Shown: positions 2,660 through 14,960 of the stretch, piece by piece
Position numbering within the stretch: the first letter of the stretch is position 1
Layout of the letters: each line of letters starts with the position of its first letter
From: a virus
Length of the DNA stretch: 21,925 nt
Direction: 5' to 3' (one strand)
Virus record (IMG/VR): IMGVR_UViG_3300044622_000669
Span: 1 to 21,925 of that record
The notes under the pieces: generated by a model
What the model saw: the letters and a program-made list of their open reading frames with translations, nothing else
Told to the model about the DNA's origin: nothing
The model's database searches: none
Position numbers and translations under genes: made by a program

Positions 2660-3664
2660 TCATCTGGCGACCCCTGCGAGCATCGAGACGACCTGACGAT
2701 CTGCAATGTCGGTCTGACCTGTGAGTGTATCCATCATGGTGCGCTCGATCATCGAGCGGCCGTTGCGTGTCGGCTTGACATGCTGCCGCCATGTGTTCAC
2801 TGTCTGCAGTGCACCAAATGCTGTGCCCCTGAACGGTGCACACCTGATGTCGGTCTGCCACATCTGACGCAGAGTGGCGCGAGTGTTGGCTGCGCGTGTC
2901 TGTGACTGCTGACTCTCAATGTCTGACGATGGTACGAGCACTGTCAGGAAGCGGTCGAAGTGTTTATCGGTGACGGTCATCGCCATCAGTTCTTCGATCT
3001 CTGCTGCGAAGTCTGCTTCGAGTGAGTGCACGATCTGCAGTGCCTGTCGAGCATCGGCCAGTCTGAGATGCGACTGTGATGTGTGCCGCACGCTGTGCTG
3101 CTCTGACTGCTCTCGCAGTGCCTGATTGCGTGTGTTGTCACACACCACGATCGTGCAGGTGCGCTTGTAGAGCGTCGCGATCTCACCGTTGAATGATGTG
3201 GTGGCGAGTAGGTGTGGTCTGAACTCGATGCCTGCTGCAGTGCAGTTCTCTGGCATCTCGATCTGCACCCAACCGATAGCACCGCCTTTGAGTACACCTG
3301 CTGTGCCGATCTGTAGATCGTCGTCGAGCAGATTACCTACCTGCGTGAGCAGCCACTCATCGTACTGGTGTGGCTGATATGTCTTCGATGGTACGCCGAG
3401 CACCTGCCATGTGTCGTCGCGCACGATCGCTTTGCGGTTCGGTACTTCGATCAGTCGATCATCTGGTGTGGTGATGTGCATCGGCATCTCGACTGCGTGC
3501 CATGCGAATAGTCTGCGTCGCACATCTTCTACAGGTATCGCACCTGTGTAGTGATTCGGCTCTGCACTCTGCAGGTCTTGCTTGTGATGCCATGCCAGAC
3601 CGCGCTGATCGGTGAAGCCGACCAGCACCTGCGTGTTCAGTGTCTCTAGTGTCTCTGCGCTCAT
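2660..3664 (-). CDS. DUF932 / phage-plasmid-like protein
   Basis: A 334-residue protein resembling the DUF932 family (TIGR03299, 'phage/plasmid-like protein'). The family features I recognise are an N-terminal RGLAWH segment (21-26), the VPNRKAIVRDD..VLGV..KTYQPHQ block (74-100), the KGG..GWVQIEMPE block (126-139) and a CDNT box (175-178) after LYKRTC. Members occur widely in phages, plasmids and actinobacteria; their biochemical role is unknown. The ATG at 3664 overlaps the upstream TGA as ATGA. The frame is open further upstream, but that part duplicates other genes and lacks a better start. The C-terminal half is helical and polar. Confidence 0.85.
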   Translation of the reverse strand: MSAETLETLNTQVLVGFTDQRGLAWHHKQDLQSAEPNHYTGAIPVEDVRRRLFAWHAVEMPMHITTPDDRLIEVPNRKAIVRDDTWQVLGVPSKTYQPHQYDEWLLTQVGNLLDDDLQIGTAGVLKGGAIGWVQIEMPENCTAAGIEFRPHLLATTSFNGEIATLYKRTCTIVVCDNTRNQALREQSEQHSVRHTSQSHLRLADARQALQIVHSLEADFAAEIEELMAMTVTDKHFDRFLTVLVPSSDIESQQSQTRAANTRATLRQMWQTDIRCAPFRGTAFGALQTVNTWRQHVKPTRNGRSMIERTMMDTLTGQTDIADRQVVSMLAGVAR

Positions 3665-3864
3665 TTGGTGTTGCCCTTCTTCATGATGTTGTAGGTGAGT
3701 AGTGCGAGCAGCGTCATCGAGATGACGAAGCCTTCGGTTGATGGGATAGGTGCAGATGGGTCTGTGGTCTCTAGGCCACCTGCACATGCGATGCCTGTGA
3801 GTAGCAGCACGAGTGCTGCGATGTTCTTCGTGCGATTCCACTTGTACTGATCGATCACTCTCAT
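3661..3864 (-). CDS. Small two-span membrane protein
   Basis: A 67-residue protein with two hydrophobic segments, about residues 14-30 (IAALVLLLTGIACAGG) and 46-60 (FVISMTLLALLTYNIM), joined by a Pro/Ser/Thr loop, with a basic C-terminus (KKGNTK). The ATG at 3864 overlaps the upstream stop as ATGA, which fixes the start over the longer open frame. The topology could suit a holin-like or superinfection-type membrane protein, but nothing in the sequence is diagnostic and it lies far from the lysis cassette. Confidence 0.65.
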   Translation of the reverse strand: MRVIDQYKWNRTKNIAALVLLLTGIACAGGLETTDPSAPIPSTEGFVISMTLLALLTYNIMKKGNTK

Positions 3865-4542: not shown

Positions 4543-4749
4543 CTATCGATGCCTGTATGTCGGGTCGATCTGGTGACACCTGCAGATGTCGTCGATCGCG
4601 ATCTCAGAGCCGCAGGTGACGCAGGTGGCTGAGTGTTTGATCGATGGCCTGAAGTCGATGCCGTGTGTGAGATAGGTGTGCAGTGATAGATCGGTCGATC
4701 GGCGTGTGGTGTGCTCACAGAATGAGCAGGTGTGCAGTGCGGTGCTCAT
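4543..4749 (-). CDS. Small zinc-finger-like protein
   Basis: A 68-residue protein with two possible metal sites. The first is C8-x2-C11 followed by H24 and H29 (CSFCEHTTRRSTDLSLHTYL), close to a C2H2 finger. The second is C43-x2-C46 then C56 and C58 (CVTCGSEIAIDDICRC), a zinc-ribbon-like arrangement. Such proteins usually bind nucleic acid or other proteins. It starts within the stop of cassette B as ATGA, so it is co-transcribed from the cassette B promoter. The target is unknown. Confidence 0.68.
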   Translation of the reverse strand: MSTALHTCSFCEHTTRRSTDLSLHTYLTHGIDFRPSIKHSATCVTCGSEIAIDDICRCHQIDPTYRHR

Positions 4750-5012
4750 GATGCCACCTGCTGATCGTAGATGCGATACTTCGTGGCCTTGCCGTTGATG
4801 CGGTAGGTGTTCCCATCAGAGCAGGTGATCAGGTAGTACTTGCCGACCACATCAGTACCGCCGAAGGCTATTCTGTCTCGCTGCTCTACTGAGACCACTG
4901 TCGTCAGTCGATCTACTGCGTCGAGTGTGTAGTGCATGTGGTCGCCTAGCAGACCGATGACATCACCAGCCTGCAGATGCTTCGCTGTCTTCTTACCGAT
5001 CACCGTGTTCAT
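4746..5012 (-). CDS. Cassette B small protein (MNTVIGKK family)
   Basis: An 88-residue paralogue of the protein at 5707-5976, about half identical to it. Both share the N-terminus MNTVIGKK, a GDV.GL.G motif, the SVEQ strand, the exact block ITCSDGNTY and the C-terminus QVAS. Alternation of hydrophobic and polar residues suggests a small beta-barrel. The start is fixed by AAGGGGAAAAT just upstream and by agreement with the paralogue; a longer in-frame start at 5045 lies in the leader hairpin. It has its own promoter and 5' hairpin, and its stop overlaps the zinc-finger gene. I do not recognise the family; an RNA- or DNA-binding role would be speculation. Confidence 0.75.
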   Translation of the reverse strand: MNTVIGKKTAKHLQAGDVIGLLGDHMHYTLDAVDRLTTVVSVEQRDRIAFGGTDVVGKYYLITCSDGNTYRINGKATKYRIYDQQVAS

Positions 5013-5029
5013 ATTTTCCCCTTCGTCTG

Positions 5030-5045
5030 ATGGCCATCTGGCCAT
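5030..5045 (-). promoter_or_regulatory. 5'-terminal hairpin of cassette B mRNA
   Basis: On the minus strand ATGGCC-AGAT-GGCCAT is a perfect 6-bp stem with an AGAU loop. It begins exactly 7 bases after the -10 box, which places it at the first base of the transcript. It ends 17 bases before the ATG. The same position, loop and stem length recur in cassette A with different stem bases. It could be a 5' mRNA stabiliser, a translational operator or a repressor site. Confidence 0.65.
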
Positions 5046-5354: not shown

Positions 5355-5710
5355 CAGTGACCCCTGTCTGCTCGTGGGTCACGCACTTCCCAGACACCGC
5401 GCTGCACCTTGCGGAAGCGGTCGGTGTGGTTGTTGATGAGTCGATGTGCACGCTCAGATGTGACACCGAGTGTGGCTGCCAGATCGTGCTGTGTGATGTG
5501 TGCAAAGAGATTCGCTGTGCACCACTGCAGCATCGTCTGCTCGATGATCTCGATGGTCTTCTCGATGTCAGGGTTGGCTGTCGCTGCTGTCAGCATCTGC
5601 TCGATGTCTGACGATGGCACTGCCTGCCTGATGCTCATAGGTACAGTCGCGACCCACATAGGTCGGCCGTACTCGACGATCGCTGTCTCGATGACCTGAT
5701 GTGGTGTCAT
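5354..5710 (-). CDS. Winged-helix DNA-binding protein, putative
   Basis: A 118-residue protein. Residues 72-110 read as a helix-turn-helix with wing: ITQHDLAATLGVTSERAHRL is a helix-turn-recognition-helix and RKVQRGVWEVRD a beta wing. Residues 1-70 are helical and could dimerise. It is translationally coupled to the cassette A protein (ATGA overlap) and shares its promoter, so it is a natural candidate regulator of the two cassettes or of phage timing. The DNA-binding call rests on the HTH pattern; the target is inference. Confidence 0.65.
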   Translation of the reverse strand: MTPHQVIETAIVEYGRPMWVATVPMSIRQAVPSSDIEQMLTAATANPDIEKTIEIIEQTMLQWCTANLFAHITQHDLAATLGVTSERAHRLINNHTDRFRKVQRGVWEVRDPRADRGH

Positions 5711-5976
5711 GATGCCACCTGCGCATCGAAGATGAAGTACTCGCGAGCACTGTTGCTGATGGCGTAGGTGTTACCGTCTGAGCATGTGATGTCATAGATC
5801 TTGGTGGTAAGCCAAGTGCCAGCGAAAGGCATCTCGCACCCAGACTGCTCTACTGAGAGCACTGTCACCAGACGCTCATCATGCTCATCTGTGAAGTTCA
5901 GCCAGTTGCCGATCAGACCGACAACATCACCAGACTGAATCTGGTTCACTTTTTTCTTACCGATCACCGTGTTCAT
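5707..5976 (-). CDS. Cassette A small protein (MNTVIGKK family)
   Basis: An 89-residue protein paralogous to the one at 4746-5012. It shows the same order of elements: MNTVIGKK, a SGDVVGLIGN turn, the strand VTVLSVEQ, the exact ITCSDGNTY block and the C-terminal QVAS. A small beta-rich fold is likely. It is the first gene of a short operon (this gene, an HTH protein, an 89-residue protein), driven by the promoter at 6020-6048 through a leader with a 5' hairpin and AAGGGGAAAAT ribosome-binding site. Even the bases around the following ATGA junction match cassette B, so the cassettes arose by duplication. The function is unknown. Confidence 0.75.
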   Translation of the reverse strand: MNTVIGKKKVNQIQSGDVVGLIGNWLNFTDEHDERLVTVLSVEQSGCEMPFAGTWLTTKIYDITCSDGNTYAISNSAREYFIFDAQVAS

Positions 5977-6186: not shown

Positions 6187-6699
6187 TTACATCGACCAGT
6201 GACCGAGACCGCCGTTGTCGAGCAGATACCGAGCGACACGCAGGTTGCAGTCGAGTGTCAGCAGCAGGTCGATCGAACCACCACAGGTCTTCCGTGTGAC
6301 CGTCTTCCATGATGAGTTGATCTGCAGCAGACCTGAGTCATATGTGCCATTTCGGTTGAGAGTCCAGATGATATTGCCTGCACTATCCCATCGAGCGTTG
6401 ATGGCCTGTGGTCGGCATCGAGATTCACGCCATGCGATATACGAGAACGCTTCGACAGGTAGCAGACCGTGATCAGCAAACGCCTGCTCGAACTGTGGGC
6501 ATCTCTGCGAGTCGTCACTCGACACTCTCGATGGCAGTGGCAGCACTGTCGTCGTAGTCGATGTGAGTACTGCATCTGGTGTCGGCTGAGCGAACACTGT
6601 CGATGTGATCGTCGTCGGTGCTGCGGCGTGCGCAGGTACGAGCAGCAGACATGTGACTGCTGTGATGATCGAGATAGATACTGCTGAGAGTCTTTGCAT
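6187..6699 (-). CDS. Secreted lysozyme/transglycosylase-like protein
   Basis: This 170-residue protein begins with a classical signal peptide (MQRLS, a hydrophobic core ending at LLLVPAHAAA), then a Thr-rich linker to about residue 60. It ends in a lysozyme-like domain: AWRESRC holds the likely catalytic Glu, GLLQIN is the SLT/lysozyme substrate-cleft motif, and a Cys pair follows (KTCGGS, TLDCN). It should be exported and cut host peptidoglycan glycan strands. The ATG at 6699 is preferred, with AGGTGA five bases upstream; a GTG at 6708 is the alternative. It follows the replication initiator, not the holin/endolysin cassette, which is unusual. Confidence 0.78.
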   Translation of the reverse strand: MQRLSAVSISIITAVTCLLLVPAHAAAPTTITSTVFAQPTPDAVLTSTTTTVLPLPSRVSSDDSQRCPQFEQAFADHGLLPVEAFSYIAWRESRCRPQAINARWDSAGNIIWTLNRNGTYDSGLLQINSSWKTVTRKTCGGSIDLLLTLDCNLRVARYLLDNGGLGHWSM

Positions 6700-6704
6700 G
6701 ATGC

Positions 6705-7499
6705 TCACCTGCTTCGGTGTTGGGCACTGATCTGCTTATAGAGATCGAGTGCGGCGGCCTGCTCATCTGGCGGTCTGTGTGATATCGACTCTAGCATCTC
6801 ATCGATCGAGATACCAGTGCGAGCGCATGATGCACCGAACGACATCGCATCATCGATGCGCGGCTCTCGCTTCTGTACTGGCTTCGGTATAGATGTGACT
6901 ACATCGTTCCATCGCTGCTGTGTCAGCCATGTGGCCATATGTGCGCAGTACCGCATCTCGGTGATAGTCATCGCATACTGAGTGATCGCATCGATGATCA
7001 CATCGACTGCAGGTGTCTCTGCATCAGTACACATCTTCTGCCATGCACGCCATGCTGCAGCCTTCGCGACCTTTCGTGGATACTGCTTCCATGCTGTCTC
7101 AAACTGGTCACGAGTAAGTGACGGTTCTTTACGGTTCAGTAAGTAGGTATGCGATGTGTCAGAGTGTGGCCTTTCTACTCTCACAGTGTGGCCTTCCGCA
7201 GTGCTAAGGCCATCGTCAGTGTGGCCTTTCTCTGCGTGACCTAGTAGCCGATACTTCCCGACCTTGCCACGACCTGCACCAGCAGGCTCGACGATCTCGA
7301 TCAGATCATCACGCACCATCTGTGCGATCGACAGCCGCACCCAGTTCACCGAGCAGCGAGCCTTGCGTGCCAGAGTCGTCTGTGATGGCCAGCAGATGCC
7401 TTCATCACTAGCGAAGTCAGCCAGAGCCAGATGCAGCAGCAGACGCTCACCGCGATACGGTGACGACAGCCAGACCTGCGATATCCACTTCACACTCAT
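6705..7499 (-). CDS. Phage replication initiator, winged-helix type
   Basis: A 264-residue protein. Residues 15-72 are a winged helix of the HTH_36/phage-O type (RLLLHLALADFASDEG, WPSQTTLARKARCSVNWVR, LIEIVEPAGAGRGKVGKYRL). A linker of about 90-130 follows, then a helical domain starting FETAWKQYPRKVAKAAAWRAW, a pattern common in phage replisome organisers. It probably binds the origin and recruits host helicase or loader. The start has TAGGGGAACATAG upstream. The linker DNA carries three repeated boxes (7162-7230) and other repeats, so the gene appears to contain its own origin, as lambda O does. No polymerase or helicase is in the window. Confidence 0.78.
   Translation of the reverse strand: MSVKWISQVWLSSPYRGERLLLHLALADFASDEGICWPSQTTLARKARCSVNWVRLSIAQMVRDDLIEIVEPAGAGRGKVGKYRLLGHAEKGHTDDGLSTAEGHTVRVERPHSDTSHTYLLNRKEPSLTRDQFETAWKQYPRKVAKAAAWRAWQKMCTDAETPAVDVIIDAITQYAMTITEMRYCAHMATWLTQQRWNDVVTSIPKPVQKREPRIDDAMSFGASCARTGISIDEMLESISHRPPDEQAAALDLYKQISAQHRSR
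7113..7230 (-). repeat. Iteron-like repeats inside the initiator gene, putative origin
   Basis: Three 14-base boxes on the minus strand read GAAAGGCCACACTG (7230-7217), GGAAGGCCACACTG (7197-7184) and GAAAGGCCACACTC (7175-7162). They are spaced 33 and 22 bases apart, whole helical turns at 11 bases per turn. The third is in a different codon phase, so the match is not a protein repeat. Next to them at 7143-7113 is a second motif: CTTACT, GAACCGT, AAA, GAACCGT, CA, CTTACT. The position, in the linker of the initiator, mirrors lambdoid origins. The origin call is inference. Confidence 0.6.
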
Positions 7500-7521
7500 C
7501 TATGTTCCCCTATCTATCTGA

Positions 7522-7989
7522 TTAGTCGAGATGACCTGTATCGATCGCCAGAGCGACCAAATCTGCGAGCACTGACAGACGCATCACTGCGATGCCATCA
7601 CTCTCACCATCAGGCATACATACCAGCACGAACGGTCGCACATCACCAAATGCTCGATGCGGTTCACTCTGCGCTTCAGCAGACCTGTATCGAGTCACCA
7701 CTGGCGATATCTGTGCACCAGCCTTCACTTCGAGTCGCAGCGCACCACCCCACAGTTCTTCATGTCGAGTGTTTGCACCACCGATACCGAGACGCTTCCG
7801 AGCGACACGCGCCTTCGCATCACCCTTCGCACGATTCCGCTTACCGCGTGCCACAGGGTCGCCACAGCCTTTGACTCGACGCTTCCCATCACGAGACTCA
7901 CGACCGAGAGCACCGAACTTCGGGCACTGCTCACCGAGTGTGCACTTGTCGCGCCGACCCTGACACTCGCCTTTGCGCTCATCAGTCAT
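7522..7989 (-). CDS. PD-(D/E)XK nuclease-like protein, possible resolvase
   Basis: A 155-residue protein. The N-terminal 45 residues hold four Cys (9, 16, 22 and 42), a possible zinc site. A very basic stretch follows (RGKRNRAKGDAKARVARKRLG). The core RHEELWGGALRLEVKAGAQ carries an acidic residue (E76/E77), E87-V-K89 and Q93, the spacing seen in PD-(D/E)XK nucleases including Holliday-junction resolvases. The end is beta-rich (RPFVLVCMPDGESDGIAVM). The ATG at 7989 overlaps the previous gene by 8 bases. It sits in the replication/recombination operon, which fits a junction-processing role; the resolvase assignment is tentative. Confidence 0.65.
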   Translation of the reverse strand: MTDERKGECQGRRDKCTLGEQCPKFGALGRESRDGKRRVKGCGDPVARGKRNRAKGDAKARVARKRLGIGGANTRHEELWGGALRLEVKAGAQISPVVTRYRSAEAQSEPHRAFGDVRPFVLVCMPDGESDGIAVMRLSVLADLVALAIDTGHLD

Positions 7990-8273: not shown

Positions 8274-8507
8274 CTAGACGCGATTCTTCCGCATCACTCT
8301 GCGCTCTAGTGGTGTATATCCACCGAACATGCCCCACTTATCGTCGGTCGATTCTAAGTCGATCACCATCGCCAGACATTGTTTGCGCACCGCACACATC
8401 GAGCACACTGCTCTCGCTGCTGTGTAGGCATCTGGCTCTCGTGCGTCTCGTGGGAAGAATACTTTCGTATCCATAGAGATACAGTTGGCACGATCGCGCC
8501 ATCTCAT
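8274..8507 (-). CDS. whiB: WhiB-family iron-sulphur regulator
   Basis: A 77-residue protein with the WhiB signature: C9, then C35-x2-C38-x5-C44, which bind a [4Fe-4S] cluster, followed by the glycine-rich turn WGMFGGYT (58-65) and a basic tail (RRVMRKNRV) for DNA contact. WhiB-like proteins bind the primary sigma factor and tune transcription in Actinobacteria; phage versions such as TM4 gp49 repress host whiB2 and can alter superinfection. It is coupled to the nuclease gene upstream (ATGA overlap). Its place in the recombination/replication operon suggests early expression. It is the best single indicator of an actinobacterial host. Confidence 0.93.
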   Translation of the reverse strand: MRWRDRANCISMDTKVFFPRDAREPDAYTAARAVCSMCAVRKQCLAMVIDLESTDDKWGMFGGYTPLERRVMRKNRV

Positions 8508-10763: not shown

Positions 10764-11144
10764 TCAGTCGGTTGGGAAGGGGAAGACCGAACCAACTGAA
10801 CTATCAGACAATACTGTGACCTGCGTGATCATGGCAACAGGTATGGCGAGCAGATGATCGAGCATCGCATCATCAGTGACTGACTGTGCGATCACCACAT
10901 GACCAGTCTTTGCACCAGATATCAGATACCCCACAGAGCACACCACACATGGCACATCTTCGATCTCATCGACAGACTGCCACCCAGTGCCGACGCTGTG
11001 AGCGTCGAGCCATCTGACATGCACCAGAGACTCGATGCGATCAGTCGTCATCATCGACCCCACGATCACCGCAGATTGGGTGCGGCTGTATTGGCTCATC
11101 GCATCTACATGGCGGCCGTCTAGCACCGACGAGATACATCTCAC
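10764..11144 (-). CDS. Conserved-type phage hypothetical protein
   Basis: A 126-residue protein starting at a GTG that overlaps the phosphoesterase TGA (GTGA). The core VHVRWLDAHSVGTGWQSVDE, then PCVVCSVGYLISG, HVVIAQSV and AIPVAMITQVTVL follows a pattern I associate with small phage proteins of unknown function (W.D, GW, VGYL, I-P, then a final strand). It is probably all-beta. An internal ATG at 11102 is the alternative start but lacks a ribosome-binding site. It is the last gene before the hairpin. Confidence 0.62.
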   Translation of the reverse strand: MRCISSVLDGRHVDAMSQYSRTQSAVIVGSMMTTDRIESLVHVRWLDAHSVGTGWQSVDEIEDVPCVVCSVGYLISGAKTGHVVIAQSVTDDAMLDHLLAIPVAMITQVTVLSDSSVGSVFPFPTD

Positions 11145-12211
11145 CAGCCTTCGGACTTGCGATCTACACAGAAGATCGGTGCTTGTATCGTGATGCCCTT
11201 CTCAGGTGCGACGATCGCGAGAGCCTGCTGCGGCTGCTCGAAAGAGAAGTTGCTTATGTAGGCATACTCGTCGTATCCCTTCATCGAACCATTGACGACC
11301 ATCGATGGTGATGGCAGATACTGATGCCAGTGACCGAGCCAGAGAGTCTGAAACGATGCGCCTGTGGCAAGGTATCTCTGAGCCTTGCGTGCACGCATGC
11401 GCATGATAGGTGGATAGATGCCACCGATCGAGCCGCCACCCTGTGTCTGATCACCGTGAGTCAGCAGATGATGTGTGTCATAGATCGCGATCAGTGCATC
11501 AGATGACTCTGGTATTTGGAATGTGATACGCCGATCATCAGCGAAGTGACGCTCTAGCATCTTGGCAAGCAGCCAGTCAAAGTTAGTGCGAGCACGCAGT
11601 TTCATTCTTGGCTTGCGAGTTGTGCGACCATGATTACCAGCGACCGCAGCGATGTGCACCTTCTTGAACTCGCCTGCCAGTAGATCAATGGCAGATGCGA
11701 TCTGCTCTGCCCAGTAGAGCAGCGAGCCGAGCATCGTATCTTCGTTCGTCTCTTTCAGTTCTTCATGTATGTCACCACTGAAGATGTCACCGCCGAGCAT
11801 CAGCACCACACCGTCATATTTCATACCTGCTAGGTGATGACGCGCCATCTTGATCACATTCTGTGACCACCGTTTCATGCGCAGTACAGCGATGGTGCGG
11901 TTATATGCGTTGAGACCATCGACTTCTTCTGGCTCGACTATCTCATCGAGATGCAGATCAGACAGCATCAGCACCAGAGTCGCAGCACTGGCTTTCGTCT
12001 TGGCTTGCGGCTGTAGCCACTTGATCGGCTGTATCTTTGCGTTCTCTACCTGCTCGACGACATCGAGTGTGCGACGCACCTGCTCTAACTGTGTGGCGAT
12101 ACGCGCCATCTCACTGATAGCACTGTCACGCTCACGCCTGACCTTCAGTACTTCAGCACGCAGCATCTCGCTGCCATCAGAGACTGCTGATATCTCGTCA
12201 CCGAGACTCAT
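11141..12211 (-). CDS. Calcineurin-like metallophosphoesterase
   Basis: A 356-residue protein. Residues 12-60 form a predicted coiled coil (EMLRAEVLKVRRERDSAISE and on). The rest has all five metallophosphoesterase motifs: SDLH (84-87), GGD (140-142), GNH (192-194), HGD (252-254) and GHWH (293-296), which bind two metal ions. Family members include Mre11/SbcD-like nucleases and phosphodiesterases; phage copies are common, and their substrates are mostly unknown. It overlaps the small HTH-like gene upstream by 4 bases and lies between lysis and recombination genes. A nuclease role in DNA processing is plausible but not shown. Confidence 0.88.
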   Translation of the reverse strand: MSLGDEISAVSDGSEMLRAEVLKVRRERDSAISEMARIATQLEQVRRTLDVVEQVENAKIQPIKWLQPQAKTKASAATLVLMLSDLHLDEIVEPEEVDGLNAYNRTIAVLRMKRWSQNVIKMARHHLAGMKYDGVVLMLGGDIFSGDIHEELKETNEDTMLGSLLYWAEQIASAIDLLAGEFKKVHIAAVAGNHGRTTRKPRMKLRARTNFDWLLAKMLERHFADDRRITFQIPESSDALIAIYDTHHLLTHGDQTQGGGSIGGIYPPIMRMRARKAQRYLATGASFQTLWLGHWHQYLPSPSMVVNGSMKGYDEYAYISNFSFEQPQQALAIVAPEKGITIQAPIFCVDRKSEGW

Positions 12212-13574: not shown

Positions 13575-14960
13575 TTATCTCTTTCGTTGTGACTGACTTT
13601 GGCTGCCGCTCGAAATAGGAACTGGCAGCACGAATGTTAGTGCAGTCACAGCGATCACCGCACGACGCTGACCGACGCTGATAGTGCTTCCTGCAGGCAC
13701 ATATGAAGAGAGTGCATCACTGGCGAAGATATCGACAGCAGACTCGAACGATTCCTTTACATCGTCAGACGCATCACTGATGATGTCACCTATCTCAGCG
13801 ACCTGCTCATCGGTCAGCATCTCGAAGGCTGCAGAGTCTGTGATGGCCGCTATGTCTGCCACTGTGATCTGATCAGGTAACACATCGGCCAGACCTGCGA
13901 CTGCATTAGATAGGTCAGATAGTTCCTGTATCAGATCGACGGTTGTCTCGGTGACTGGTGTCGTCTCGACTGTGGTATCGACCGCAGGCACAGTCGTCTC
14001 GATCACAGGGGTTGTGGTAGTAGTCGCAACTGCAGTCGTAGAAGGTGCAAAACTCGAAGTGGTGCTGATGACAGGCACAGTCGTCTCTGGTGCAGTGGTA
14101 GGCGGCCATGTGGTACTCGTCTCGATCGGTGTCTCTGTAGTGGTGGTCGATGGTACAGCAGGTGGCTCGGTAGTGGTAGTCGATGTCTGTGTCGGTACAG
14201 GTGCTGCAGTAGTCGTGGTACTCGTGGTGGTACTCGATGTGGTCACAGGTATCTGTGATGTAGTCACATAGATAGTCGATGATGTGGTGGTACTCGATGT
14301 GGTGGTACTCGATGTGGTGGTACTCGATGTGGTGGTGTCTGGCACTGTGGTATCTGGCATCGTCGTATCAGGCACAGTCGTATCAGGCACAGTCGTATCA
14401 GGCACAGTCGTATCAGGCACAGTCGTATCTGGTATCGGCTCACTGGTAAATGACTCAGGCTGCACGATCGCCCAACCCTGACCATCGATGTTCCATGCAA
14501 GCATGAAGCAAGTACCACCGCCATTCTCATATACCCACGCATCGAGACTCTGCACACCAGCATCTATATCGAGCAGACCTGACTCAGTAGCAGAGCAACC
14601 CTGATCTACCCACGAACCGAACTGATGTGTACCGATAGTGACCATGCCACCATCATCAGACGCAAGCCAGAACTCGATCGTGTCGTGCTCTGGTATCTGT
14701 ATCGCACCTGTGTAGTGCAGCATAAAGAGATCAGTACCACACTCACCGAACTGCTGCTCTGGTGTATCCCATGTGGCATTGATGAAGTCGAGTGTGCCCT
14801 GACCGCACACAGGGTACTGATCATCTGACATGACAGGTGGTATCTCATCGATGCTGTACCCAGTGACAGCGAGACCTGTGACTACATCAGCAGATGCAGG
14901 TGCTACCCATGCGAGTGCAGCGACTGGCGCAAATATCAGCCAACGAGAAGTGCGAGCCAC
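13575..14960 (-). CDS. Secreted PA14-like protein with Thr/Pro stalk and C-terminal anchor
   Basis: A 461-residue protein with a Sec signal peptide (hydrophobic 8-20, likely cut after PASA, residue 24). Residues 26-172 are PA14-like: FMLHYTGAIQIPE, the hallmark FWLASDDGGMVTIG (97-110), and GGTCFMLAWNI, with paired Cys that could form disulphides. Residues 177-345 are a Thr/Pro/Ser stalk of PDTTV and TTTSS pentapeptides. Then comes a helical acidic region (345-420), and near the end one hydrophobic span (429-445) followed by a basic tail (RKR). PA14 domains bind glycans. This looks like a host-surface protein made from the phage, or a virion adhesin. It lies between the fibre and holin genes. 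Confidence 0.8.
   Translation of the reverse strand: MARTSRWLIFAPVAALAWVAPASADVVTGLAVTGYSIDEIPPVMSDDQYPVCGQGTLDFINATWDTPEQQFGECGTDLFMLHYTGAIQIPEHDTIEFWLASDDGGMVTIGTHQFGSWVDQGCSATESGLLDIDAGVQSLDAWVYENGGGTCFMLAWNIDGQGWAIVQPESFTSEPIPDTTVPDTTVPDTTVPDTTVPDTTMPDTTVPDTTTSSTTTSSTTTSSTTTSSTIYVTTSQIPVTTSSTTTSTTTTAAPVPTQTSTTTTEPPAVPSTTTTETPIETSTTWPPTTAPETTVPVISTTSSFAPSTTAVATTTTTPVIETTVPAVDTTVETTPVTETTVDLIQELSDLSNAVAGLADVLPDQITVADIAAITDSAAFEMLTDEQVAEIGDIISDASDDVKESFESAVDIFASDALSSYVPAGSTISVGQRRAVIAVTALTFVLPVPISSGSQSQSQRKR
14279..14432 (-). repeat. Two adjacent 15-bp tandem repeat arrays
   Basis: Within the PA14-stalk gene, 14366-14425 is four identical 15-base units, flanked by diverged units out to 14336-14432 and encoding PDTTV. 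Next to it, 14281-14336 is three identical 15-base units plus a partial, encoding SSTTT. The unit length keeps the frame, so copy-number change by slippage would only lengthen or shorten the stalk. Confidence 0.85.

Follow-up and report, generated by a model that had tools for sequence, protein, structure and literature searches.

The initiator gene analyzed here carries three copies of an iteron-like box within the DNA for its linker, followed on the sense strand by a tandem GAACC array, and sequence comparison indicates that an element of this kind recurs in initiator genes of proteobacterial and actinobacterial phages, in which it occupies the same place. Both parts, their place, their orientation, and a constraint at the DNA level were established by sequence analysis. 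The reading that we favor, with somewhat better than even confidence, is that a phage replication origin is built into the initiator gene and is composed of iterons and a constant, directional GAACC array. The plan of such an origin is ordinary, and it is the shared element that is unusual.

The window, i.e., the whole stretch of DNA that was analyzed, corresponds to a virus record that is 21,925 bases long. No end repeats were reported for it, and hence it is probably a fragment of a virus genome. The presence of a WhiB-like gene (Table 1) fits an actinobacterial host, in agreement with a preliminary description in which the virus was taken for an actinophage. In a relative, L020, a similar protein is encoded at nearly the same location. 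Scans of the window for Rfam families and for tRNAs gave no matches. Other genes on its minus strand included a DUF932 gene (2660-3841) and an exonuclease-like phosphoesterase (11141-12211, PHROG 284), and proteins similar to both were found in the ORF list of L020. Two neighboring small genes, also on the minus strand (4746-5045 and 5707-5976), resemble a duplicated pair, as they contain direct repeats of 143 and 97 bp that are 77% and 71% identical and lie approximately 960 bp apart. Additionally, the ORF at 13575-14960 contains 15-bp tandem repeats (14065-14451) that give rise to threonine-rich protein repeats, and its C-terminal stretch may be a membrane anchor.

The initiator matched the Pfam family HTH_36 (PF13730) with an E-value of 3e-7 and a score above the gathering score, and this was the sole family above threshold in the Pfam scan of the protein. 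Its best PHROG was phrog_270, annotated as "replication initiation protein" (E 6e-25). By profile, the protein is classified as an O-like, HTH_36 phage replication initiator. The AlphaFold2 model (mean pLDDT 73.6, pTM 0.35) included a winged helix at residues 1-86, a disordered stretch at residues 89-127, and a helical domain at residues 130-263. On this model, the peptide predicted to be encoded by the boxes and the GAACC array belongs to the disordered linker or lies at its edge, which bears out the earlier placement of the boxes between the winged helix and the C-terminal domain. A fold search of the PDB returned no match below an E-value of 0.001 and only weak winged-helix matches, including the N-terminal domains of the plasmid initiators 4pql, 5kbj, and 4pt7. 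Two contigs contained a gene identical to that of the window, and a protein search of genome contigs found no relative.

Table 1. Features of the window that bear on the candidate origin, with the basis of each assignment or its state in the closest relative (L006).
Feature	Position	Strand	Basis or remark
WhiB-like gene	8274-8507	minus	PF02467, E 1e-16
Initiator gene (264 aa), coding for an HTH_36 winged helix, a disordered linker, and a helical C-terminal domain	6705..7499	minus	
DNA coding for the winged helix, residues 1-86	7242..7499	minus	AlphaFold2
Iteron-like box 1, AGAAAGGCCACACT	7218..7231	minus	degraded to CAGATACCCACACT in L006
DNA coding for the disordered linker, residues 89-127	7119..7235	minus	pLDDT <50
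Iteron-like box 2, CGGAAGGCCACACT	7185..7198	minus	core conserved in L006
Iteron-like box 3, AGAAAGGCCACACT, in a different codon phase	7163..7176	minus	conserved in L006 with the same 22-bp spacing
Spacer between the boxes and the GAACC array, with a TACCTA(T/C) block common to several relatives	7138..7162	minus	linker alignment
GAACCGTAAAGAACCGTCA, in which the conserved GAACCRTCA element occurs twice with a 10-bp spacing	7119..7137	minus	pattern scan, reversed control, homolog survey
Outer CTTACT copy	7113..7118	minus	judged incidental; partner at 7138-7143 absent from L006
DNA coding for the helical C-terminal domain, residues 130-263	6711..7112	minus	AlphaFold2

The word AAGGCCACACT was found exactly three times in the 21,925 bases, at 7163, 7185, and 7218 on the minus strand, and the window contained no further copy even when one mismatch was allowed. 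The spacings of 22 and 33 bp, which place all three copies on one face of the helix, agree with those first described. When the boxes are taken as 14-mers, the first is identical to the third, and the middle one matches at 12 of 14 positions. They encode the peptides EKGHT, AEGHT, and ERPHS, from which it follows that the codon phase of the 7163 box differs from that of the other two, and the claim to this effect was upheld. A threefold occurrence of any 11-mer was not obtained in any of 2000 protein-preserving and 2000 dinucleotide-preserving shuffles.

Comparison with relatives provided further insight into the boxes. The initiator of L006, which is 70% identical to that of the window, retains boxes 2 and 3 with their 22-bp spacing. 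Across residues 101-131, the same codon was used at 23 of 25 identical residues, whereas in the remainder of the gene, beyond the linker region, this held for 93 of 138 (Fisher p 0.015), a single comparison with one close relative whose result could be mimicked by local recombination. This codon match, a check that the preliminary description had proposed, lends modest support to a DNA-level constraint on the boxes. The initiator of L020 (45% identical) shares no box and carries a different repeat, (G/A)(T/A)(T/A)AGGGGATACT, at the box position, yet it has AAGAACCGTCAAGAACCGTC in common with the window. Repeats of the AAAGG, ATAGGTCACACTCTG, or AAACCCCATT type were found at the same position in further relatives. 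Such a pattern would be expected if iterons and the domain that binds them diverged in step, and by this comparison the AAGGCCACACT boxes appear to behave like iterons. Two AAGGCCACACT copies located 18 bp apart in another contig (L008, 11639-11667) were set aside, as the contig is full of short repeats, the DNA is of low complexity, and no initiator gene was found nearby.

Beside the boxes, the sense strand of 7113-7143 reads CTTACT-GAACCGT-AAA-GAACCGT-CA-CTTACT, as had been noted, and after the boxes the gene continues with CTTACTGAACCGTAAAGAACCGTCACTTACT. The CTTACT flanks are present in the window. As a repeat they are probably incidental, since just one copy occurs in L006, and the outer repeat was dropped as a part of the element. 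Two copies of GAACCGT arose in 19 of 2000 protein-preserving shuffles and in none of 2000 dinucleotide shuffles. The class proposed here comprises genes with at least two GAACC-type units on the sense strand, 3' of the iterons and before the C-terminal domain, and the window contains such units at 7119-7137. An antisense promoter within the array, suggested by a TTGACG-like -35 on the reverse strand, was also considered and dropped. As judged by eye, the spacer of L030 has a TATATA at about a suitable distance from the -35, and a matching -10 was not seen in the window, in L020, or in the Pseudomonas type.

Initiator homologs were gathered by protein search and dereplicated to 50 ORFs. When all 7-mers were counted with no prior motif, GAACCGT was the most widely shared, occurring in 37 of the 50 homologs; the pair that had been mentioned as a mere aside to the boxes is thus the most widely shared element of the set, and it is absent from lambda O. 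The degenerate form GAACC[GA]T was found in 42 of the 50, a prevalence that may be overstated because both query alignments of the survey consisted of element carriers, and at least two copies were found in 34. Copies on the sense strand numbered 85, versus three on the antisense strand and 18 +/- 4 in protein-preserving shuffles. They were distributed over the three codon frames (41/27/17), and nearly all lay at a distance of 335-440 bp from the start of the gene, on the 3' side of the variable iterons. The most frequent spacings were 10 bp (16 cases), 11 bp (11), 12 bp (7), and 22-23 bp (7). Among the eight homologs without the strict word, three had one-mismatch forms, four had a common CATCCGTCC repeat, and one was truncated. 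A separate cluster of four viral contigs had a CATCCGTCCTAT repeat in place of GAACCGTCA in the initiator linker; with the core CCGTC in common, this repeat may be another form of the element.

Clustering of 76 carriers placed 75 of the N-terminal domains in one cluster, while the C-terminal parts formed 11 clusters, and the element is hence not tied to one C-terminal domain. As judged from this clustering, the element goes with the winged-helix family, with the host, or with both.

The array was also sought by pattern in 2.9 million viral contigs, where GAACCGTNAAGAACCGT (GAACCGT-NAA-GAACCGT) matched 39 stretches, 34 of them inside ORFs with an HTH initiator N-terminus and in codon frames 23/7/4. 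The reversed pattern matched 36 stretches, none of which lay in an HTH initiator ORF (Fisher p 3e-16), the HTH profile for this comparison having been built from homologs that were found through element carriers. Since the reversed pattern was nearly as frequent, the raw count of exact matches was rejected as evidence, and gene context alone discriminates between the two. Pfam's own HTH_36 independently matched 40 of the 45 proteins examined, a set that includes three non-initiator ORFs, two ORFs cut at the N-terminus, and four named phages. Among 84,980 genomes, a 20-mer form was matched at four loci, each of which lay in an initiator-like prophage gene and was preceded by repeats. In a random sample of Gammaproteobacteria, the exact word occurred in one of 369 genomes, which was the seed genome, and the exact 16-base form is therefore uncommon in gammaproteobacterial prophages.

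Named phages that carry GAACC[GA]T included Pseudomonas phi2, Stenotrophomonas CUB19, Bordetella PHB09, and Arthrobacter Galaxy and LittleTokyo, as well as EBPR podovirus 2 and a Microcystis phage. A 45-nt Pseudomonas form retrieved 25 Pseudomonas phage records, many of them annotated as O-like or primosomal proteins, while a direct BLAST search of named phages with the decamer in a 30-nt query returned little. A second form, GAACCAGTCA, was carried by Salmonella As1, E. coli 2H10, Vibrio D65 and D77, and Stenotrophomonas BUCT709, with steps of 17 and 12 bp. A scan for two copies of GAACCAGTCA returned at least 120 stretches, and 73 of the 80 examined were within HTH initiator ORFs. At these loci, the repeats in front vary and the element behind them stays constant. 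The GAACCAGTCA form was present in 892 of 5,426 complete E. coli genomes, where, among the matches listed, 25 of 25 were in genes with a helix-turn-helix domain. Neither a GAACCRTCA nor a GAACCAGTCA array was found in lambda O, Lactobacillus LJ, E. coli PhiR49, Acinetobacter TT23, or a Brevibacillus plasmid. The element is hence not universal, which weighs against the two-part reading. The initiator genes of Vibrio 1.205.O, Vibrio K72, and Aeromonas 4_D05 contain CCTAACA-like repeats every 11-12 bp, which come after iteron-like repeats at the GAACC position and are possibly another, third form of the element.

When 250 bp to each side of the element were considered, the 20 bp of lowest stability coincided with it in 36 of 42 loci, compared to a mean of 10 and a maximum of 16 in 100 protein-preserving shuffles. 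The spacer (Table 1) forms part of this minimum, which is a feature of the homologs taken together. Within positions 6501-7700 of the window, by contrast, the 20 bp of lowest stability were intergenic and upstream (7511-7530) and not at the GAACC element, which counts against the two-part reading. GC skew, another check that had been proposed, did not mark an origin: the cumulative maximum was 1.3 kb from the candidate in the window and inside the boxes in L006, and the polarity of the maximum was terminus-like, so that skew was discarded as not diagnostic.

In the origin proposed here, the first part would be the phage-specific iterons (three AAGGCCACACT copies on one helix face), bound by the winged helix of the same protein, and this pair of iteron and winged helix would diverge quickly between phages. 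The second part would be the directional and constant GAACCRTCA array immediately 3' on the sense strand, with units usually about one or two helix turns apart, which would occupy the position of the AT-rich unwinding region of lambda. As the stability minima suggest, the iteron-bound initiator may strain the adjoining weak DNA, leading to opening there. The array would be held in one orientation by the initiator, a helicase loader, or a host factor, and its orientation could in turn direct the loading of the helicase onto a defined strand. Origin activity, iteron binding, unwinding, and a reader of the GAACC array are what we infer. The near-helical spacing of GAACCRT would suit a double-strand binder, and the 17-bp step of the enteric form would not; being off helical phase, this step counts against the two-part reading. 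The constant orientation beside weak DNA would suit strand-specific capture.

Several other explanations of the repeats were weighed against an origin of this kind. Conservation of the protein, namely of an NRQEPS motif and EGHT-like linker repeats, could produce repeated DNA with no role of its own; indeed, the array always encodes NR(Q/K/N/H)EPS within the family of the window initiator, and boxes 1 and 2 share one frame. This explanation is nevertheless scarcely credible, given that box 3 is in another frame, that the array is read as NRQEPS, EPSRTV, or RTVKNR depending on the phage, that the linker is predicted to be disordered, and that protein-preserving shuffles yielded 18 copies against the 85 observed. 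The boxes might instead be operators through which the winged-helix protein regulates transcription or translation of its own gene, with the origin located elsewhere. We consider this quite improbable: the boxes are deep inside the gene and not at a promoter, the protein families group the window protein with replication initiators, and the layout matches that of ori-lambda (PMC3349717), although HTH_36 is a general DNA-binding fold and the candidate origin is known from sequence alone.

Two further explanations accept the boxes or the array as DNA sites and assign the array a different role. It could be a recombination joint for the swapping of modules, in which case the boxes would be iterons and the array would have no part in initiation. 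Its location where the winged-helix/iteron module meets the C-terminal module is what such a joint would predict, as is the single cluster of N-terminal domains (75 of 76) beside 11 clusters of C-terminal parts. However, the array occurs in all three codon frames, so that an exchange inside it would often break the frame, and a joint needs neither tandem copies nor near-helical spacing nor a stability minimum; a joint is accordingly rated as rather unlikely. A site for a host protein, either an architectural or a replication factor, in place of a phage protein is a doubtful possibility that deserves more weight. Under this explanation the form of the array would follow the host group, and GAACCAGTCA does dominate in enteric and Vibrio phages while GAACCRTCA is found in Pseudomonas, Bordetella, and actinobacterial phages. 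The same form also occurs alongside unrelated C-terminal domains, and the near-helical spacing fits a double-strand binder. Against it, the near-identical words of actinobacterial and proteobacterial phages would require a host factor of conserved specificity, the array is unlike a DnaA box, and both forms were found in Stenotrophomonas phages (BUCT709 and CUB19).

Beyond the window, the odds appear about even that the GAACCRTCA and GAACCAGTCA arrays represent a widespread, undescribed origin element that extends across phyla and has one conserved reader, with the iterons and the winged helix changing freely. A description of the array was not found in the open-access full-text literature when longer motif strings and NRQEPS/NRKEPS were searched, and the top-ranked matches of the 9-mers were unrelated by title. 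Judged from open-access papers, the shared array is apparently undescribed, in that we could not find an account of it. Many phages and prophages carry an O-like HTH_36 initiator with an unmapped origin, and if the proposal is true, the origins of a large class of uncharacterized temperate phages could be located from sequence alone. A constant word beside variable iterons would also make it possible to test cleanly which factors open a phage origin and load it, as the iteron pair would set the identity of the replicon and the constant word would do a shared job, making the two separable. The commonness of the enteric form in E. coli opens the question to tests in laboratory strains.

The closest known systems include the O-like/HTH_36 initiators of Pseudomonas, Arthrobacter, Vibrio, Salmonella, and E. 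coli phages (PHROG 270, 391, and others), of which the window protein is a member by profile. The named examples have iteron-like repeats of their own and a GAACC-type array in the same place as the window, and they differ from it in the iteron sequence and often in the C-terminal domain. HTH_36 is also found in replication-region proteins of the Eru replication units of non-lambdoid Stx phages, as in the window initiator; the Eru regions lack lambda O and P, and the terms "iteron" and "origin of replication" are absent from the paper describing them (PMC8951638). In lambda, the origin lies in gene O, where a 38-bp AT-rich sequence adjoins a set of four 18-bp iterons (PMC3349717). The window resembles lambda (J02459) in having origin-like repeats in the linker-coding DNA of the initiator. 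In lambda, DNA that opens easily comes next on the 3' side of the sense strand, and a stability minimum takes this place across the homologs, whereas the deepest minimum in the window is the upstream intergenic one. The window differs from lambda in its iteron, in the family matched by its initiator, and in its array, as lambda has neither GAACCRTCA nor GAACCAGTCA. The earlier suggestion of a lambda-like plan with a different iteron is therefore supported in part: the plan is consistent with the iteron-like boxes in the linker, the PHROG 270 match, and the comparison with L006. The iteron plasmid origins of RK2 and F contain repeated 13-mers in the unwinding element, and strand-specific reading of such repeats is known for plasmid Rep proteins and for DnaA at DnaA-trio origins (PMC10797057). 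The window resembles both the RK2/F and the DnaA-trio origins in that the initiator repeats stand next to another series of repeats, which here lies in the putative unwinding element. In contrast to the plasmid repeats, which vary between replicons (PMC10797057), the GAACC array is intragenic, has approximately 50% G+C, and is similar across phages of different phyla.
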